DNA of 37,089 nucleotides from Lachnospiraceae bacterium (GTDB lineage Bacteria; Bacillota; Clostridia; Lachnospirales; Lachnospiraceae), in contig JAFSXC010000046.1 in assembly GCA_017450105.1 (NCBI GenBank), positions 1 to 37,089 on the forward strand, read 5' to 3'. Below, piece after piece: positions 1 through 28,625 of the stretch. The notes under the pieces were generated by a model. That model was not told the origin of the DNA, did not search any database, and saw nothing but the letters and a program-made list of their open reading frames with translations. The translations under genes and the position numbers were made by a program. Position 1 is the first letter of the stretch; every line of letters starts with the position of its first letter.

Positions 1-142
1 CGGGCACGGGGAGGACCATTGTTTTCCCGGGGGACGGTATTATCGCGGGACCCCCGCGCACAGAGTCTGGGAGATGGCTTACCAAGGCGCCGTCACTGCG
101 TAAATTTGCTTAAGTTACTGACATTGCGGTGTGAACAGTAAC
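1..142 (-). repeat. TIR-bearing intergenic repeat, copy 1 (cut by window edge)
   Basis: This stretch is the reverse complement of the left part of the elements at 3713-3930, 7838-8055 and 28412-28625. Its outer end at 142 carries the shared terminus, read on this strand as GTGTGAACAGTAAC, and the inner part shares the GGGAGATGGCTTACC block and the run around GCGGGACCCCCGCGC. The other end lies outside the window. It is the only copy in this orientation. There is no coding capacity, so a MITE-like or other non-autonomous repeat is the best description. Confidence 0.85.
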
Positions 143-180
143 TCGGTTTTCGCATTTTACAGGGAACCCTTTCAAGTGTC

Positions 181-209
181 TTGAAACACCATTCATCCTG
201 TGTTATGAT
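181..209 (+). promoter_or_regulatory. Sigma-A-type promoter for the Rpn-like gene
   Basis: TTGAAA at 181-186 and TATGAT at 204-209 are separated by 17 bp, a near-consensus vegetative promoter. It starts 38 bp beyond the end of repeat copy 1 and leaves a leader of about 105 nt before the TTG start at 322. Confidence 0.7.
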
Positions 210-219
210 GCACGTATCT

Positions 220-239
220 TTCGGAACGATCGTTCCGAA
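220..239. promoter_or_regulatory. Perfect 20-bp palindrome in the rpn leader
   Basis: TTCGGAACGATCGTTCCGAA is a perfect dyad starting about 11 bp after the -10 box, so it overlaps or follows the expected start of transcription. A second imperfect hairpin follows, with GGAATT at 242-247 pairing with AATTCC at 266-271 and GGCC at 252-255 pairing with GGCC at 260-263. It could be a repressor operator or a leader RNA structure; the sequence alone does not decide. Confidence 0.6.
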
Positions 240-321
240 TCGGAATTCTCTGGCCTCTCGGCCGTAATTCCCGGTTGCAGATGATTTTTTATCAAACTAT
301 AATGAAAGGAGATGCGATTAT

Positions 322-1335
322 TTGGACAATTTCAACCACGAAAAGACCTATGACTCCGTGTTCTGGACCGGGGTGGTACGATTGACCCCGTATCTTGTCC
401 CGCTGGTGAATGAGGCCTTCGGGGAGCATTATTCGGAGCATACAATAGTCCGCCTGCTGCCGATGAAGCAGGTGACAAAGCTTCCGGACAAGACTCTGCC
501 GAAAAGGGAAGCGGATTCCCTGGCGGAGCTGACAGACAGGGCTGCCGGTATTTCCAGGTTATACCACTTCGAATGTGAAACCTGGCCGGATAAAAGCATA
601 GCGATCCGGATCGCGGAATATGCTGCCGGCGCGGCCTTCGGAAGTATCCGGCTGACGGAAAACGGTGCCTGCATGACGGTTCCGAATTCCGCTGTGATCG
701 TACTGAAAAACAAAACTCCTATGCCTGAAAAGCTGTGCATTACGATCCGGTATCCGGGCGGAAGCGTGGATTATTTTGCACCGCTGATAAAAATGTGGCA
801 CTATCCGCTGGATGTGCTTTTGGAGAAAAGATTGTATTTATTGCTCCCGTTTTACTGGATCTATGGTATGGAAGCAAAGGAAAAAAGCAGTCCGGAGGAG
901 CTCCTTAAGGGGATCCGATCGGATATGGAAAGGATCGGTTATGCGTTCTCCGAAGCCGGAAGAAGGGGCGAACTGAACGTAACGCAGATACGTTACCTGT
1001 TTGATCTGATAGAGCAGGTATTGAAAAGACTTTCGGAAAATGACAGATCAGTAGCAGAAGGAGTGGAGAAAATTATGGGTGGAGAAATATTAGAGTTGGA
1101 AACGGACCGCATTCTGGAACGTGGACGCACAGAAGGCAGGGAAGAAGGCCGTCAGGAGGGCAGGGAGCAAGGCCGTCAGGAGGGCAGGCAAGAAGGCCGC
1201 CTGGAAGGACAAAACGATATCCGGCTTCAAATCGACCATATGAGACAGCAGGGAAAATCTGCGGAAGATATTATAGCTGAGATCATGAAAAAAGAAGCTA
1301 TTCCTGCGGGTACTGAGGAAACTTACACAAAGTGA
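322..1335 (+). CDS. Rpn-like PD-(D/E)XK nuclease family protein
   Basis: The 337-residue protein resembles the Rpn (recombination-promoting nuclease, putative transposase) group. The N-terminal part holds a plausible PD-(D/E)XK core: D65, then E84-C-E86 where the family often has ExQ, then R96 and Y100. Residues about 265-297 are a Gly-Arg-Glu/Gln repeat typical of these proteins, followed by a short helical tail. The start is TTG at 322, with GGAG at 307-310 upstream. Inside the gene, GGAG at 1065-1068 stands 6 nt before an in-frame ATG at 1075, which would give an 86-residue C-terminal product. In E. coli Rpn proteins such an internal product acts as antitoxin to the full-length nuclease. 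Catalytic assignment is by motif only and the nuclease core is divergent. Confidence 0.65.
   Translation: MDNFNHEKTYDSVFWTGVVRLTPYLVPLVNEAFGEHYSEHTIVRLLPMKQVTKLPDKTLPKREADSLAELTDRAAGISRLYHFECETWPDKSIAIRIAEYAAGAAFGSIRLTENGACMTVPNSAVIVLKNKTPMPEKLCITIRYPGGSVDYFAPLIKMWHYPLDVLLEKRLYLLLPFYWIYGMEAKEKSSPEELLKGIRSDMERIGYAFSEAGRRGELNVTQIRYLFDLIEQVLKRLSENDRSVAEGVEKIMGGEILELETDRILERGRTEGREEGRQEGREQGRQEGRQEGRLEGQNDIRLQIDHMRQQGKSAEDIIAEIMKKEAIPAGTEETYTK
1056..1077 (+). promoter_or_regulatory. Internal ribosome site and in-frame ATG within the Rpn-like gene
   Basis: AGAAGGAGTGGAG followed by ATG at 1075-1077 is in frame with the long protein (ATG codon 252). The GGAG at 1065-1068 is spaced 6 nt from the ATG, better than the site of the full-length gene. 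The same sequence is the translation start of the duplicated tail at 1366. Confidence 0.6.
1135..1206 (+). repeat. Three 24-bp tandem units (Gly-Arg-Glu/Gln repeat)
   Basis: Units at 1135, 1159 and 1183 follow the pattern GGCAGGGA(A/G)(G/C)AAGGCCG(T/C)C(A/T)GGA and encode octapeptides such as GREQGRQE. They form the repetitive hinge between the nuclease core and the tail. Confidence 0.9.
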
Positions 1336-1365
1336 AAATCGGTAGCAGAAGGAGTGGAGAAAATT

Positions 1366-1662
1366 ATGGGTGGAGAAATATTAGAGTTGGAAACGGACCG
1401 TATTCTGGAACGTGGACGCACAGAAGGCAGGGAAGAAGGCCGCCAGGAGGGCAGGGAGCAAGGCCGCCTGGAGGGCAGGGAGCAAGGCCGCCTGGAGGGC
1501 AGGGAGCAAGGCCGTCAGGAAGGCAGGGAGCAAGGCCGCCTGGAAGGACAAAATGATATCCGGCTTCAGATCGACCATATGAGACAGCAGGGAAAATCTG
1601 CGGAGGACATTATAGCTGAGATTATGAAAAAAGAAGCTGCTCCTGCCCTTCAGAGCCCGTAA
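1366..1662 (+). CDS. Stand-alone duplicate of the Rpn C-terminal tail (possible antitoxin-like protein)
   Basis: This 98-residue reading frame repeats the last quarter of the gene at 322-1335: MGGEILELETDRILERG, then five GREQGRLE-type octads, then the QNDIRLQIDHMRQQGKSAED tail, ending differently (AAPALQSP instead of AIPAGTEETYTK). I chose ATG 1366 because GGAG at 1356-1359 is spaced 6 nt; GTG 1354 overlaps the ribosome site. It lies 30 nt after the upstream stop with no promoter between, so it is probably cotranscribed. By analogy with intragenic Rpn antitoxins it may bind and restrain the nuclease. It could instead be a non-functional duplication product. Confidence 0.6.
   Translation: MGGEILELETDRILERGRTEGREEGRQEGREQGRLEGREQGRLEGREQGRQEGREQGRLEGQNDIRLQIDHMRQQGKSAEDIIAEIMKKEAAPALQSP
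1426..1545 (+). repeat. Five 24-bp tandem units in the duplicated tail
   Basis: Units start at 1426, 1450, 1474, 1498 and 1522. Units 2 and 3 are identical, suggesting recent slippage expansion. The upstream copy has three units, so the two tails differ only in hinge length and in their last residues. Confidence 0.9.
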
Positions 1663-1757
1663 TCAAGATGCGGCTTGAGAACAATCGCATAGATTGCGAG
1701 AGACAGACAAGAAATACGACAGGCGAGGCGGAGCAGGTCCCGGAGGAAGCTTATTTC

Positions 1758-1816
1758 CGAAACGTTTCGCTTTACAAAGCTGCATTTATGGATTATATTC
1801 ATAAGTGAAACGTTTC
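1758..1816 (+). promoter_or_regulatory. fucI promoter flanked by two LacI-type operators
   Basis: TTTACA at 1771-1776 and TATATT at 1794-1799 are 17 bp apart. CGAAACGTTTCG at 1758-1769 lies directly upstream of the -35 box, and GAAACGTTTC at 1807-1816 covers the start of transcription. The centres are 48 bp apart. The same palindrome is found at the kinase and ABC promoters, so the regulator at 21689-22705 is the obvious candidate; a CcpA-like protein is the alternative. Confidence 0.8.
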
Positions 1817-1850
1817 CAAATTATAACATTAAGAAGGAGGAGGAAAGGAA

Positions 1851-3659
1851 ATGGCGAAAAACAGGTATATCGGGGAGTATCCGGCGATCGGAATCCGGCC
1901 CTGTATCGACGGGAGAAGGGGGCCCTTGAAGGTAAGGGAATCTCTCGAGGAGCAGACCATGAATATGGCGAAGTCGGTGAAGAAGCTGTATGAGGAGAAT
2001 CTGAAATACTCCAACGGCGAACCGGTGAAGGTGGTGATCGCGGATACGACGATCGGCCGTGTAGCGGAATCGGCGGCGGCGCAGGCGAAGTTCAAGAAGG
2101 AGGGTGTGGCGATTACGCTTTCTGTGACGCCCTGCTGGTGCTATGGCTCGGAAACCATGGATATGGATCCTCTGACCATCAAGGGTGTCTGGGGACTGAA
2201 TGCGACGGAGCGCCCCGGCGCCGTGTATCTGGCGTCTGTTCTCGCAACGCATGCCCAGAAGGGTCTGCCGGCCTTCGGTATTTACGGGAAGGACGTGCAG
2301 GACGCGGATGATACCGTGATCCCCGAGGATGTAAAGACAAAATTGTTACGTTTCGCGCGCGCGGCTGTGGCTGCAGCTTCGATGCGGGATAAATCCTATC
2401 TGCAGATCGGCTCGGTGACCATGGGCATCGGCGGCTCCATCATCGACCAGAGCTTCTTCGAGGAATATCTCGGGATGCGCGTGGAATCTGTGGACGAGGT
2501 TGAGATTCTGCGCCGCATGGAGGAGCATATCTACGATGAGGCCGAATACCAGAAGGCGCTTGCCTGGATCAAAAAATACTGCAAACCCGGTTTTGATAAG
2601 AACCCGGATTTCGTAAAGAAGTCCGACGAGCAGAAAGAGAAGGACTGGGAGTTCACAGCCAAGATGGCCTGCATTATCGAAGACCTCTATCAGGGCAACA
2701 AAAACCTGCCCGAAGGGTGCGAAGAAGAGGCAGTCGGCCACAACGCGATCTGCGGCGGCTTCCAGGGCCAGCGTCAGTGGACCGACCACTGGCCGAACTG
2801 CGATTTCCCGGAGGCGATCCTGAATACCAGCTTCGACTGGAACGGGGCGAGAGAGCCCTTTATCCTGGCCACGGAAAACGATACCTTAAACGGTACCTCC
2901 ATGATGTTCATGAAGCTGCTTACAAACCGTCCCCAGATGTTCGCGGATGTGCGGACCTATTGGAGCGGCGATGCGGTGAAGCGTGTGACCGGCTATGACA
3001 TCGAAGGCCATGCAAAGGAGGCCGACGGCTTTATCCATCTGATCAATTCCGGCGCCTGCTGCCTGGATGCCTGCGGCGAGGTAAAGGATAAGGACGGAAA
3101 CCCGGTCATGAAGGAATGGTATGATGTGACCGAGGCCGATATCGAGACCATCATGAACGCCACCGAATGGTGCCCGGCGGACAACGGCTACTTCCGCGGT
3201 GCCGGTTATTCCTCGCGGTTCCTTACCAGAGCCGAGATGCCCGCGACGATGATCCGTCTGAACCTGGTGAAGAACCTCGGACCGGTTCTGCAGATCGCGG
3301 AAGGGTGGACCGTGAACCTTCCGGACGAGGTCAGCGACGTTTTATGGAAGCGCACAGACTATACCTGGCCCTGCACCTGGTTTGCACCCCGTACCGACGG
3401 AAAGGAGGGGTCGCCGTTTAAGACCGCTTACGATGTGATGAACAACTGGGGAGCCAACCACGGCGCCATCAGCTACGGCCACATCGGCGCCGATCTGATT
3501 ACAATGGCTTCGATGCTCCGTATTCCGGTCTGCATGCATAACGTACCGCTGGATGACATCTACCGTCCGGCTGCCTGGAATGCGTTCGGCTCCGATAAGG
3601 AGGGCGCCGATTTCCGCGCCTGCGCTGCTTACGGGCCGCTTTATAAGACAATCCGGTAA
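1851..3659 (+). CDS. fucI: L-fucose isomerase
   Basis: FucI interconverts L-fucose and L-fuculose in the cytoplasm (also D-arabinose and D-ribulose) using a divalent metal. The 602-residue length fits the family (E. coli about 591). Visible metal and catalytic positions are E342 in [10 protein letters not shown]366 in FADVRTYW and H537 in [21 protein letters not shown] and [10 protein letters not shown] are further family blocks near 437-487. ATG 1851 follows a long GGAGGAGGAAAGGA ribosome site. It stands alone: a terminator follows at 3679 and the rest of the pathway begins 11 kb downstream, linked through the shared operator. Base-level evidence for the isomerase family is very strong; the exact sugar is inferred. 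Confidence 0.95.
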
Positions 3660-3678
3660 TCAGAGCATTGTCAGAGCT

Positions 3679-3712
3679 GTGTCAGGGGGACAGTCCCCCT
3701 GGCACTTTTTTT
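3679..3712 (+). terminator. Rho-independent terminator after fucI
   Basis: GTGTCAGGGGGAC at 3679-3691 pairs with GTCCCCCTGGCAC at 3693-3705 (one G:U) and is followed by seven T. The T-run joins directly to the start of repeat copy 2. Confidence 0.9.
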
Positions 3713-3930
3713 GTTACTGTTCACACCCCAATGTCATTAACTTAAGCAAATATACATAGTGGCGTCGCTCCCGCAAGCCATCTCCCAGACTTAAGTGCGC
3801 GGTGACCCCGCGAAAAATAAGTCCTCCCGGAAAAGCATCGGTTTCCCCGTGCTCGGTCCGGGGCCCTCTTACTTGCGTTATGAGGAAGGTTTTGGGCTTA
3901 AGTTAATGACTTTGAGGTGTGAACAGTAAC
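3713..3930 (+). repeat. TIR-bearing intergenic repeat, copy 2
   Basis: The element is 218 bp long. Its ends are inverted repeats of about 34 bp, starting GTTACTGTTCACACCCCAAT and ending GAGGTGTGAACAGTAAC, each running on to the TTAAGC/GCTTAA block. The interior holds CAAGCCATCTCCCAGAC, a GCGGTGACCCCGC block and GGTCCGGGGCCCTCTTAC, and it is not itself palindromic. T-runs flank both sides. No reading frame in it looks real. Confidence 0.9.
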
Positions 3931-3942
3931 TTTTTGTTTTCT

Positions 3943-3971
3943 TTGACAGGCCCCGGTAATCTCTGTAAAAT
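3943..3971 (+). promoter_or_regulatory. Promoter for the hybrid histidine kinase
   Basis: TTGACA at 3943-3948 and TAAAAT at 3966-3971 are 17 bp apart. The -35 box begins 12 bp after the end of repeat copy 2. Confidence 0.75.
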
Positions 3972-4015
3972 GGAAAAAGAACATAGAAGTTGTACAAAGA
4001 GGATATGCGCTCGAG

Positions 4016-6058
4016 ATGAGAGAATATGTATTAACAAATGAAATAGAATACGGAGAGCAGATCAAAAATGCCAGCGGTATGATCACAGCCATGGCTTCGG
4101 ACTACCGGAGCGTTTACTATGTGGATCTGGATAAGGATGAGGGGATCTGCTACCGCTCTTATAAGGATCTGGAGGGCGCAATCCGGGAGGGCGAGCATTT
4201 CTGCTTTTCCGAGGCTTTTACCCGCTATGCCGAAAAGTATGTGGCGGAGGGGTATCGCGCGGAGTTTCTCCGGATGATTACTCCGGAGAATATCCGTAAG
4301 GAGCTCGAGAACGAGACGATTGTCACGCATCGCTATCTGGTTGTCCGGAATGGCCAGGAAAGCTATGAGATGTTCCGCATGGCCGGGGTCCGCCATCCCG
4401 AAGAGCGTGACGACCATATGATCCACGCCGTCGGAGTCGGCTTTACGGATGTGGATAAGGAGACAAGAAAAACCTTGCGCCAGCAGCAGCTCTTAAGCGA
4501 CGCGCTGACGGTGGCGGAGGAGGCAAACCGGGCGAAGACGGCCTTCCTCAGTACGATGAGCCATGAGATCCGTACGCCGATGAACGCCATTATCGGCCTG
4601 GATACCTTGGCGCTGAATACCCCCGGGCTCTCTTCGGAAACAAGGGAATACCTGGAGAAGATCGGAGCCTCGGCGAGACACCTTCTGGGTCTGATCAACG
4701 ATATCCTCGATATGTCCCGGATCGAAGCGGGGCGGATGGTCATAAAACGAGAGGAATTCTCGCTGAAAAAGCTGCTGGACGAGATCAACGCCATGGTGGA
4801 CAGCCAGTGCCACAGCAGGGGACTCCGTTATGAATGCCGGATGGAGGAGGATCTTCCGAATTACTTTATCGGCGATGCCATGCGCCTGAAGCAGGTCATC
4901 ATCAATATACTCGGAAATTCCGTGAAGTTTACGCCCTGGGGCGGGAGCGTGATCTTCTCGGTAAAGCGGATAGCCTCCTTCGAAGGAAAAACGACGCTCT
5001 GCTTTACGATGGAGGATACCGGGATCGGTATGGATAAGGAATTTATCCCGAAGCTCTATGAGGCATTCAGCCAGGAGGATTCCTCCACAAAGAACAAATA
5101 CGGGAGTACCGGCCTCGGCATGGCCATTACCCGGAATTTTGTGGAAATGATGAACGGCCGGATCGAGGTGGAGAGTGAAAAGGGAAAGGGAACGACCTTT
5201 ACTGTTACCGTGACGCTTCAGAATTCGGATCACCACGAGGAGAGTGAGCAGGACGATGTGCCGCTGAGCGGCCTGTCCGTGCTGGTGGTGGACGATGATC
5301 CGGTGGCGTTGGGGCATACCCGGCTGATGCTTGGGAAGATCGGGATTACTGCGGATACGGCGAATACCGGTGCGGAGGCTGTTGATATGGCGCGGCTCCG
5401 TCATGCCAGGGGAGAGGCCTATGACCTGATCCTGATGGACTGGAGAATGTCGGAAATGAACGGGATCGAGGCAACGCGCCGGATCCGGGACAGCCTCGGA
5501 GAGGAAGCGGCCGTGGTCCTTCTGACGGGCTACCAGTGGGAGGATATCGCGCAGGAAGCGGTGGAGGCGGGTGTTGCGGGCTTCCTGACAAAGCCGGTTG
5601 CGCCGGCGAACGTGCAGGAGGAAGTGCATAAGGCGCTGGAAAAGGCGCGGTCCGGCCGCAGGGAAAAGGCCGGGCTGAATGGACGCCGGATCCTGCTGGC
5701 GGAGGATATGCCGATCAATGCGGAGATCATGAAAAAGATTCTCGGCATGAAGAGGATTGAGGTGGAGCACGCCGAGAACGGGCGGATCGCGACGGAGATG
5801 TTTGCGGAGCATCCGCATGGGTATTACGATGCGATCCTGATGGATATGCGAATGCCGGAAATGGACGGGCTGCAGGCGGGCAGCCTGATCCGTTCCATGG
5901 ACCGGGAGGATGCGAAAACCATACCGATCATTGCCCTGACCGCCAATGCCTTTGATGAGGACGTAGAGCGGAGTCTGCAGGCGGGACTGAACGCCCACTT
6001 AACTAAACCCGTGGAGCCGGATATTCTCTTTGCTACGCTGGAGAATCTTATGAAGTGA
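4016..6058 (+). CDS. Hybrid sensor histidine kinase with two receiver domains
   Basis: This 680-residue protein has no membrane segment, so it is probably a soluble sensor. Residues 1-160 form a PAS-like input region of unknown ligand. The HisKA phosphoacceptor is H183 in STMSHEIRTPMN. The ATPase domain shows N301 (N box), DTGIGM near 334 and a GSTGLGMAI box near 363. Receiver 1 has D426-D428 and phosphoacceptor D475 with K526; receiver 2 has E563/D564, D610 and K664, with the full LMDMRMPEMDG motif. No Hpt domain or separate output gene is adjacent, so the phosphorelay partner must be elsewhere. ATG 4016 has AGAGGA at 3998-4003, a rather long spacing. Confidence 0.9.
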   Translation: MREYVLTNEIEYGEQIKNASGMITAMASDYRSVYYVDLDKDEGICYRSYKDLEGAIREGEHFCFSEAFTRYAEKYVAEGYRAEFLRMITPENIRKELENETIVTHRYLVVRNGQESYEMFRMAGVRHPEERDDHMIHAVGVGFTDVDKETRKTLRQQQLLSDALTVAEEANRAKTAFLSTMSHEIRTPMNAIIGLDTLALNTPGLSSETREYLEKIGASARHLLGLINDILDMSRIEAGRMVIKREEFSLKKLLDEINAMVDSQCHSRGLRYECRMEEDLPNYFIGDAMRLKQVIINILGNSVKFTPWGGSVIFSVKRIASFEGKTTLCFTMEDTGIGMDKEFIPKLYEAFSQEDSSTKNKYGSTGLGMAITRNFVEMMNGRIEVESEKGKGTTFTVTVTLQNSDHHEESEQDDVPLSGLSVLVVDDDPVALGHTRLMLGKIGITADTANTGAEAVDMARLRHARGEAYDLILMDWRMSEMNGIEATRRIRDSLGEEAAVVLLTGYQWEDIAQEAVEAGVAGFLTKPVAPANVQEEVHKALEKARSGRREKAGLNGRRILLAEDMPINAEIMKKILGMKRIEVEHAENGRIATEMFAEHPHGYYDAILMDMRMPEMDGLQAGSLIRSMDREDAKTIPIIALTANAFDEDVERSLQAGLNAHLTKPVEPDILFATLENLMK

Positions 6059-7800: not shown

Positions 7801-7837
7801 GTTACTGTTCATATCATCCCTTGCGGGTTACTGTTCA
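7801..7837. repeat. Two extra partial termini of the TIR repeat
   Basis: GTTACTGTTCA occurs at 7801-7811 and again at 7827-7837, directly before the complete terminus of copy 3 at 7838. These look like remnants of earlier insertions or of end-to-end rearrangement. Confidence 0.7.
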
Positions 7838-8055
7838 GTTACTGTTCGCACCCCAATGTCATTAACTTAAGCAAATATACATAGTGGCGTCGCTCCCGCA
7901 AGCCATCTCCCGGACTTAAGTGCGCGGGGGCCCCGCGAAAAATAAGTCCTCCCGGAAAAGCATCGGTTCCCCCGTGCTCGGTCCGGGGCCCTCTTACTCG
8001 CGTTATGAGGAAGCTTTTGGGCTTAAGTTAATGACATTGAGGTGTGAACAATAAC
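7838..8055 (+). repeat. TIR-bearing intergenic repeat, copy 3
   Basis: This is 218 bp, the same length as copy 2 and nearly identical to it, including ATACATAGTGGCGTCGCTCC and GGAAAAGCATCGGTT. Ends are GTTACTGTTCGCACCCC on the left and GGTGTGAACAATAAC on the right. It is in the same orientation as copies 2 and 4. Confidence 0.9.
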
Positions 8056-28411: not shown

Positions 28412-28625
28412 GTTACTGTTCACACCCCATGTCAGTAACTTAAGCAAATTTACGTATTGGCGGCGCTTTGGCAAGCCATCTCCCAGACTCTGTGCGCGGG
28501 GGCCCCGCAATAATAACGGCCCCCGGGAAATCTTCCGTCCCCCCGTGCTCGGTCCGGGGCCCTCTTGCTCGCGTTATGAGGAAGGTTTTGGGCTTAAGTT
28601 ACTGACATGGGGTGTGAACATATAA
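28412..28625 (+). repeat. TIR-bearing intergenic repeat, copy 4
   Basis: The left end is GTTACTGTTCACACCCCATG and the right end GACATGGGGTGTGAACA followed by a degraded terminus (TATAAG). Its interior resembles copy 1 (GACTCTGTGCGCGGGG, GCCCCCGGGAAA) more than copies 2 and 3, so at least two subtypes exist. It fills the gap between fucU and the plsX promoter. Confidence 0.88.

Follow-up and report, generated by a model that had tools for sequence, protein, structure and literature searches.

Why would a bacterium keep, just downstream of a toxin-antitoxin gene, a second antitoxin that does not seem to match the toxin beside it? This testable question is posed by the differing repeat numbers of two antitoxin-like tails in a 37,089-nucleotide stretch of DNA from a Lachnospiraceae bacterium (hereafter the window), where a layout described mainly in E. 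coli was recognised from raw sequence in a distant lineage. In that layout, the small protein RpnS is translated from an internal start within the gene of the toxin RpnL, which it blocks, and carries four-residue repeats (Zhong et al. 2023, PMC10327210). According to the same study, RpnS may also be encoded on its own: second copies, independent in origin, lie downstream of rpnE (ypaA) and of rpnC in E. coli, and free RpnE_S (ypaA) is made, as detected by tagging. The authors add that free rpnS copies may be lost or undergo fusion, and that RpnC_S fails against RpnC once it carries an extra repeat, a specificity shown for RpnC only. The layout of the window, to which a sequence-only reading of this DNA had drawn attention, is therefore not a novelty; the extra antitoxin gene proves, however, to be recurrent and apparently conserved. 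The features concerned are as follows.

322..1335, + strand: rpnL, predicted PD-(D/E)XK nuclease with a C-terminal repeat tail, 337 aa, TTG start (open reading frame list, alignment, TIGR01784 in relatives)
1058..1068, + strand: Shine-Dalgarno-like stretch AAGGAGTGGAG ahead of the internal start (sequence, Shine-Dalgarno statistics)
1075..1335, + strand: putative intragenic rpnS, 86 aa, MGGEIL..., 6 repeat units counted by eye (Met invariant in 31/31 genes, Shine-Dalgarno tests)
1308..1341, + strand: probable duplication junction, comprising the last RpnL codons and the stop TGA at 1333-1335 (weak similarity to the sequence upstream of the internal start)
1338..1365, + strand: duplicated 28 nt before the second start, including a second Shine-Dalgarno-like stretch at 1349-1359 (sequence comparison)
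1366..1662, + strand: putative free-standing rpnS copy, 98 aa, 10 repeat units, last residues APALQSP (open reading frame list, repeat comparison)

The TTG start of rpnL is preceded by a GGAG, and its stop is the TGA at 1333-1335. Residues D11, D65, E84, E86 and R96 of the window protein align with D11, D63, E82, Q84 and R94, the catalytic set of RpnA (PMC5350276); the position of RpnA Q84 is also E in several relatives. Invariant columns of a 31-gene alignment include D65, E84, R96, Y100 and M252 (31/31). Since scans of the window protein alone stayed below the cut-off of every model for the Rpn (recombination-promoting nuclease, COG5464) family (TIGR01784, E 0.13; PF04754, no match), its membership rests on its relatives: TIGR01784 (Rpn) matched 24 of the 31 aligned genes and PF04754 four of them at E ≤0.1 (best 4.5e-10 and 2.1e-4, respectively), and a profile comparison of the window family with E. 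coli RpnC/RpnE aligned the catalytic region with a probability of 91 and E 1e-6. Matches of the tail to FliH (NCBIfam) and Yae1/Yae1_N (Pfam) were set aside as driven by the repeats. With 18% identity in the profile alignment, the window gene belongs to another Rpn sub-family than RpnC and RpnE, from which its MGG start motif and glycine-arginine-glutamate repeats also distinguish it, and by contrast to K-12 RpnE, which is reported to have been inactive in the assays of PMC5350276, it retains the catalytic set. It shares with the C. difficile rpn, whose RpnS arises from an internal start when cloned in E. coli, the Gram-positive origin; for that gene no free copy is described in the main text of PMC10327210. 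Assignment of the window gene to the gene-within-gene RpnL/RpnS toxin-antitoxins of Zhong et al. 2023 is well supported by these comparisons.

Used as a single query, the window protein has matches (25-37% identity, E ≤1e-15) in 34 of the 298 further genomes sampled from its family, or 35 of 299 with its own genome counted, and in one of three other genomes of the genus. Its own genome, a draft of 138 contigs and 85.7% completeness, contained no further paralog of this rpn type; it holds two Rpn-type genes of other sub-types, one weakly matched (L143, G000:C85, E 0.006) and one running off its sequence inside the tail (L142, G000:C120). Searches by sequence among solved structures gave nothing convincing for the window protein (3 matches, best E 0.33), PADLOC-DB returned no match to it at E ≤0.01, and one scan of viral contigs with the L036 protein gave no match. 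An AlphaFold2 model built from the window and L034 proteins only was too weak to use (mean pLDDT 52.5, pTM 0.38).

The putative internal start, ATG 1075, is in frame as codon 252 of rpnL, with AAGGAGTGGAGAAAATT before it and GGTGGAGAA (MGGE) after it; AAGGAG stands at 1058-1063 and GGAG at 1065-1068. The internal Met is invariant in all 31 aligned genes, each with a purine-rich stretch upstream, and among the fetched loci an M-x-G pattern occurs where it should in 89 of the 95 unique full-length genes. Four of the remaining six have a Met at or near the place, and the other two, L057 and L059, have Phe instead of the internal Met, preceded by a GTG codon, itself a start codon. L057 (minus strand, frame from 2950) holds, by eye, two tail-like segments in one reading frame, devoid of four-residue repeats.

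The energy of pairing between the 17 nt upstream of the internal start and the 16S tail averaged -9.2 kcal/mol over the 89 genes, as compared with -7.0 for synonymous-codon shuffles (Z -9.1, n=89) and -2.5 for 651 other internal ATGs, and was ≤-6 at 87/89 internal starts versus 66/651 other internal ATGs (Fisher p 5e-68), these Z and p values being optimistic because the sequences are related. The residues encoded over the site vary (KGV, KEV, RRF, ERL), so that protein constraint alone does not explain the signal. It does explain part of it, since many single genes do not exceed their own synonymous shuffles, and the window gene is among them (p 0.41). Sequence conservation and the Shine-Dalgarno statistics together support the view that the internal start is under selection.

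The free tail starts at ATG 1366, 30 bases past the rpnL stop, in the same phase as the intragenic tail, and the 24 nt upstream of it are identical to those before ATG 1075. A repeat finder matched 1047-1208 to 1338-1499 (94% over 162 nt) and 1116-1307 to 1455-1646 (88% over 192 nt), both far beyond chance. The copy is inexact: 43 versus 27 repeat residues lie between fixed landmarks, that is, four more four-residue repeats, and the C-terminal residues differ (PALQSP in the free tail, PAGTEETYTK in the intragenic one). The 96-nt stretch after the repeats contains seven differences; on inspection by eye, five of them are synonymous and the other two affect a single codon. Clear homology includes the 28 nt that precede the ATG (27/28 identical) and so sets in immediately ahead of the ribosome site; a weak extension to -61 spans the last codons of the upstream reading frame (shuffle p 0.0055), for which reason the 3' end of rpnL may have arisen at the duplication junction. 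The free tail matched the neighbouring gene with E 5.5e-33 and 96% identity, and elsewhere in 295 genomes with 7.4e-14 or weaker among the matches listed. By these sequence criteria, the free tail appears to be a separate rpnS cistron derived from the adjacent gene, of the ypaA type. The sequence-only reading, which had pointed out the ATG at 1075 with its GGAG and the recurrence of this start and the tail as a 98-residue frame, and had proposed an Rpn-like nuclease gene with an internal start, agrees with these results; it had described the tail as copied, which holds insofar as an antitoxin-like tail is present twice, but not for the four added repeats and the different end.

E. coli rpnE-ypaA and rpnC resemble the window in having an rpn gene with an internal start and a second rpnS cistron directly downstream, the two tails differing in repeat-region length. 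In rpnE/ypaA, too, the duplicated sequence begins at the internal ribosome site, 14 nt ahead of the start codon, whereas free rpnC copies have a different leader, so that a boundary at the ribosome site is not universal. We infer that the window duplication is of independent origin from those of E. coli.

To survey the relatives, 80 regions were fetched among the matches listed, with ≤5 candidates scored per genome, and segments of every gene were used to search the locus of that gene. Reading frames open at a contig end were removed, as were duplicates sharing the last 250 residues and the next 60 nt, which hides one identical same-genome pair in L077; gene counts leave out L002 and L003 (same place as L001) and L034. 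Copies of the tail outside full-length genes were found at 12 loci (15 genes), and copies of three nuclease segments at 4, 1 and 5 loci (7, 1 and 9 genes). This self-search missed a thirteenth tail locus, L051, because its copy overlaps the gene end, so that 13 loci is a minimum; the 89 genes come from 54 genomes, of which 12 contain these loci. Left uncounted are a frame made up of the tail only, in L092, and frames at contig ends in L077 and L109. All 13 loci were fetched for full-length or nearly full-length matches rather than tail-only ones, and "free-standing" means only the lack of a full nuclease, as G430 and G252a carry nuclease remnants. At least one tail frame is open at 11 of the 13 loci, and the frames in G224 and G432 are broken. 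Tail cistrons, which the sequence-only reading had proposed to seek in relatives, do therefore exist there, so that the reading withstood its own test on this point, and the recurrence of free rpnS copies in the window's family, two of the loci having a decayed copy, is new here. In another family of the order, a small tail frame (L133, 2982-3284) lies stop to stop beside an Rpn-like gene (1995-2981). L037 (2904-10513) contains three full-length rpn genes that are almost the same in sequence (about 98% in the nuclease part); two free tails come after them, and all five tails differ in length.

Recurrence bears on the possibility that the window copy is an assembly artefact, in which two strain alleles of the tail were placed in series on a metagenome-type contig. 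Such an origin would fit a draft assembly and repeat-rich DNA, but the arrangement is seen again elsewhere, at loci of other genomes and in E. coli genomes that are complete, and the two tails, although on one contig, differ in their repeats and at synonymous sites scattered along them, all of which makes it very improbable.

The left edge of the duplications was also informative. Among 14 copies of the family (G252b, at a contig start, was omitted), clear homology began within 90 nt upstream of the internal ATG in 10 (-10 to -72) and at -170 to -278 in the other four, a clustering with binomial p 4e-7 if edges are assumed uniform over 750 nt and copies independent. The boundary directly before the ribosome site, already remarked upon in the sequence-only reading, is thus a recurrent one. 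In two of these 10, G190 (L028) and G224, another piece from farther upstream comes next, and the left edge is there that of a deletion. What precedes the tail in the L028 copy and in G430 matches DNA at the start of the gene itself or immediately before it, as would be left if a full copy had lost its nuclease part. Other nuclease pieces are present in G224 and G368, and in G368 and G430 the nuclease pieces are partly deleted or frame-shifted, the tail being still open. The ribosome site of the L051 copy is overlapped by the stop codon of the gene before it; in E. coli rpnE the stop abuts it.

That the locus captures an evolutionary intermediate, on a one-way path from an intragenic to a free-standing antitoxin, was the interpretation of the sequence-only reading. 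The case most favourable to it is L034 (2672-3598), the nearest relative (43% identical in the alignment), in which a stop codon separates nuclease and tail and is followed, in frame, by a tail start with a ribosome site; this is, however, a single metagenome contig, which may represent a mutant or an error. A one-way move is not supported: the window still has an intact internal start, and copies have been gained and lost repeatedly. Furthermore, none of the genes examined had lost the intragenic start yet kept a free copy, and L057 and L059, with GTG before the lost ATG, have no free copy in the fetched region. We consider such an intermediate quite improbable.

Selection on the free copies was assessed by codon comparison, from the internal Met, of 12 intragenic/free tail pairs, omitting G224 and G432, whose frames are broken, and G356, which read by eye is open and apparently four residues longer. 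Pooled pN/pS was 0.20 (133.5 synonymous differences over 549 sites; 97.5 nonsynonymous over 2031 sites), or 0.19, by hand, without the G252b pair, which sits at the beginning of a contig and may be a truncated gene of full length. Single pairs ranged from 0.08 (G111, with synonymous sites near saturation at pS 0.85) to 0.45 (G190b); the window pair, with few substitutions, gave 0.31. Neutral drift of a free copy next to a constrained gene should give a value nearer 0.5, and the open free copies accordingly look maintained by purifying selection, although a low pN/pS can alternatively come from gene conversion or from divergence before duplication.

These values weigh against the free copy being a non-functional by-product of duplication of a repeat-rich 3' end, heading for decay or collapse. 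Such a fate is illustrated by the decayed copies in G224 and G432 and by E. coli strains lacking the second tail (L131, L129), and other parts of the gene are duplicated too, at 4, 1 and 5 loci for the nuclease segments versus 12 for the tail. It would leave unexplained the pooled pN/pS of 0.20, the clustering of left edges just upstream of the ribosome site and the loss of nuclease pieces beside open tails in G368 and G430, and on balance it is unlikely.

The window has RpnS-type four-residue repeats in variable number, six in the intragenic and ten in the free tail. Tail length was unequal in 12/12 measured pairs of the family, with net differences, ends included, of +12 residues in the window and of -4, -12, -8, -12, -4, +11, +14, -12, +8, +12 and +4 in the others; most are multiples of four, and that of 11 belongs to G368. 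The tail in L075 has a repeat of 11 residues instead of four, and its second tail is 11 residues longer. In E. coli, none of ten rpnE/ypaA pairs (K-12 and nine more loci, with seven distinct length combinations) were equal in length, and none of four rpnC pairs were so between fixed landmarks; these loci are not a random sample, as they were picked from 80 listed rows for an apparent second tail, and about 0.7 matches in the ten pairs would be expected by chance (by hand). The second tail was absent from two of 15 E. coli loci fetched by match (L129, L131) and from K-12 rpnC. No comparison of repeat numbers between free and intragenic copies is made in the main text of PMC10327210, and searches of open-licence PMC papers listed none on the subject.

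Because repeat number varies so fast, mismatch is expected even without selection, and alone it could be fast drift. Active avoidance of a shared repeat number was tested on full-length paralogs of the same genome (≥70% nuclease identity) and was not significant on its own: 0/15 pairs were equal, versus 22/134 between genomes (Fisher p 0.13; p 0.07-0.19 at identity cut-offs of 70-90). Pooling of free copies and paralog pairs gave p 0.027, rising to 0.13 once the identical de-duplicated pair in L077 is counted. The contrast within versus between genomes is suggestive, not significant. A precedent for a specificity changed by the number of four-residue repeats is the TAEL repeat of EcoR124I/II, as cited in PMC10327210, where it concerns the spacing of the DNA site of a restriction enzyme and not toxin-antitoxin pairing.

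The simplest function for the free copy would be an extra dose of antitoxin against the adjacent RpnL, with repeat mismatch tolerated in this family. Gene order and strand are the same, the copy has its own ribosome site and is highly conserved outside the repeats, and the E. coli free copy is translated (PMC10327210). Against it stand the unequal tail lengths in 12/12 pairs of the family and 14/14 fetched E. coli pairs. As one extra repeat abolishes neutralisation in RpnC, the role of the window copy is probably not simply that of a reserve antitoxin against the adjacent toxin, and restraint of the same toxin by the free tail, as the sequence-only reading had it, is doubtful given the differing repeat numbers; a spare dose is to be regarded as somewhat unlikely. 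If the 98-aa protein does not simply neutralise the neighbour, as predicted, another reason is needed for its conservation.

The locus as a whole is best explained, with a probability of roughly 0.6, as an Rpn toxin-antitoxin gene with a duplicated and maintained free RpnS of shifted specificity. Full-length RpnL would be a DNA nuclease whose C-terminal tail is also made from the internal start and, as taken from the literature on RpnS, blocks it. A duplication of the 3' end, with a left break immediately ahead of the internal ribosome site, would have put a second rpnS 30 nt downstream; Zhong et al. 2023 suggest that RpnL itself may help start duplications (PMC10327210). The second rpnS would be a cistron of its own, probably translationally coupled, expressed as its E. 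coli counterpart is reported to be, and the copy would have kept frame and ribosome site and then been maintained while its repeats became ten against six. Its product may be a working RpnS that forms its own dimers with a shifted pairing specificity, and which, by analogy with the repeat-dependent pairing of RpnC, would neutralise the neighbour poorly or not at all. It could serve against an RpnL of another repeat number, from older or incoming alleles; alternatively, the free copy could be a donor that supplies a new repeat number by recombining with the intragenic one. Extension of this reading to a general rule, from the window's family to E. coli, is tentative and somewhat unlikely: free RpnS copies would form a maintained pool of repeat-shifted antitoxins, Rpn modules coexisting in one cell would avoid sharing a repeat number, and the outcome would be immunity to non-self or former RpnL alleles, or a switching cassette.

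Other features of the window were noted. A MITE-like element of about 219 bp with inverted ends of about 35 bp lies at 3713-3931, with further occurrences at 64-143, 7837-7916 and 28412-28489, the contig probably starting inside a copy (64-143); an 80-bp arm used as query gave 65 matches in the genome, long and short arms together. No Rfam match was obtained in window positions 1-5000 at E ≤0.1. A promoter scan of 150-1900 was uninformative, with four sigma-70-like sites against 1.4 expected and none inside the rpn gene or between the two cistrons. Two GAAACGTTTC-like palindromes at 1752-1823, presumably operators of the LacI/GalR type by their look, stand just upstream of an L-fucose isomerase gene (1851-3659).
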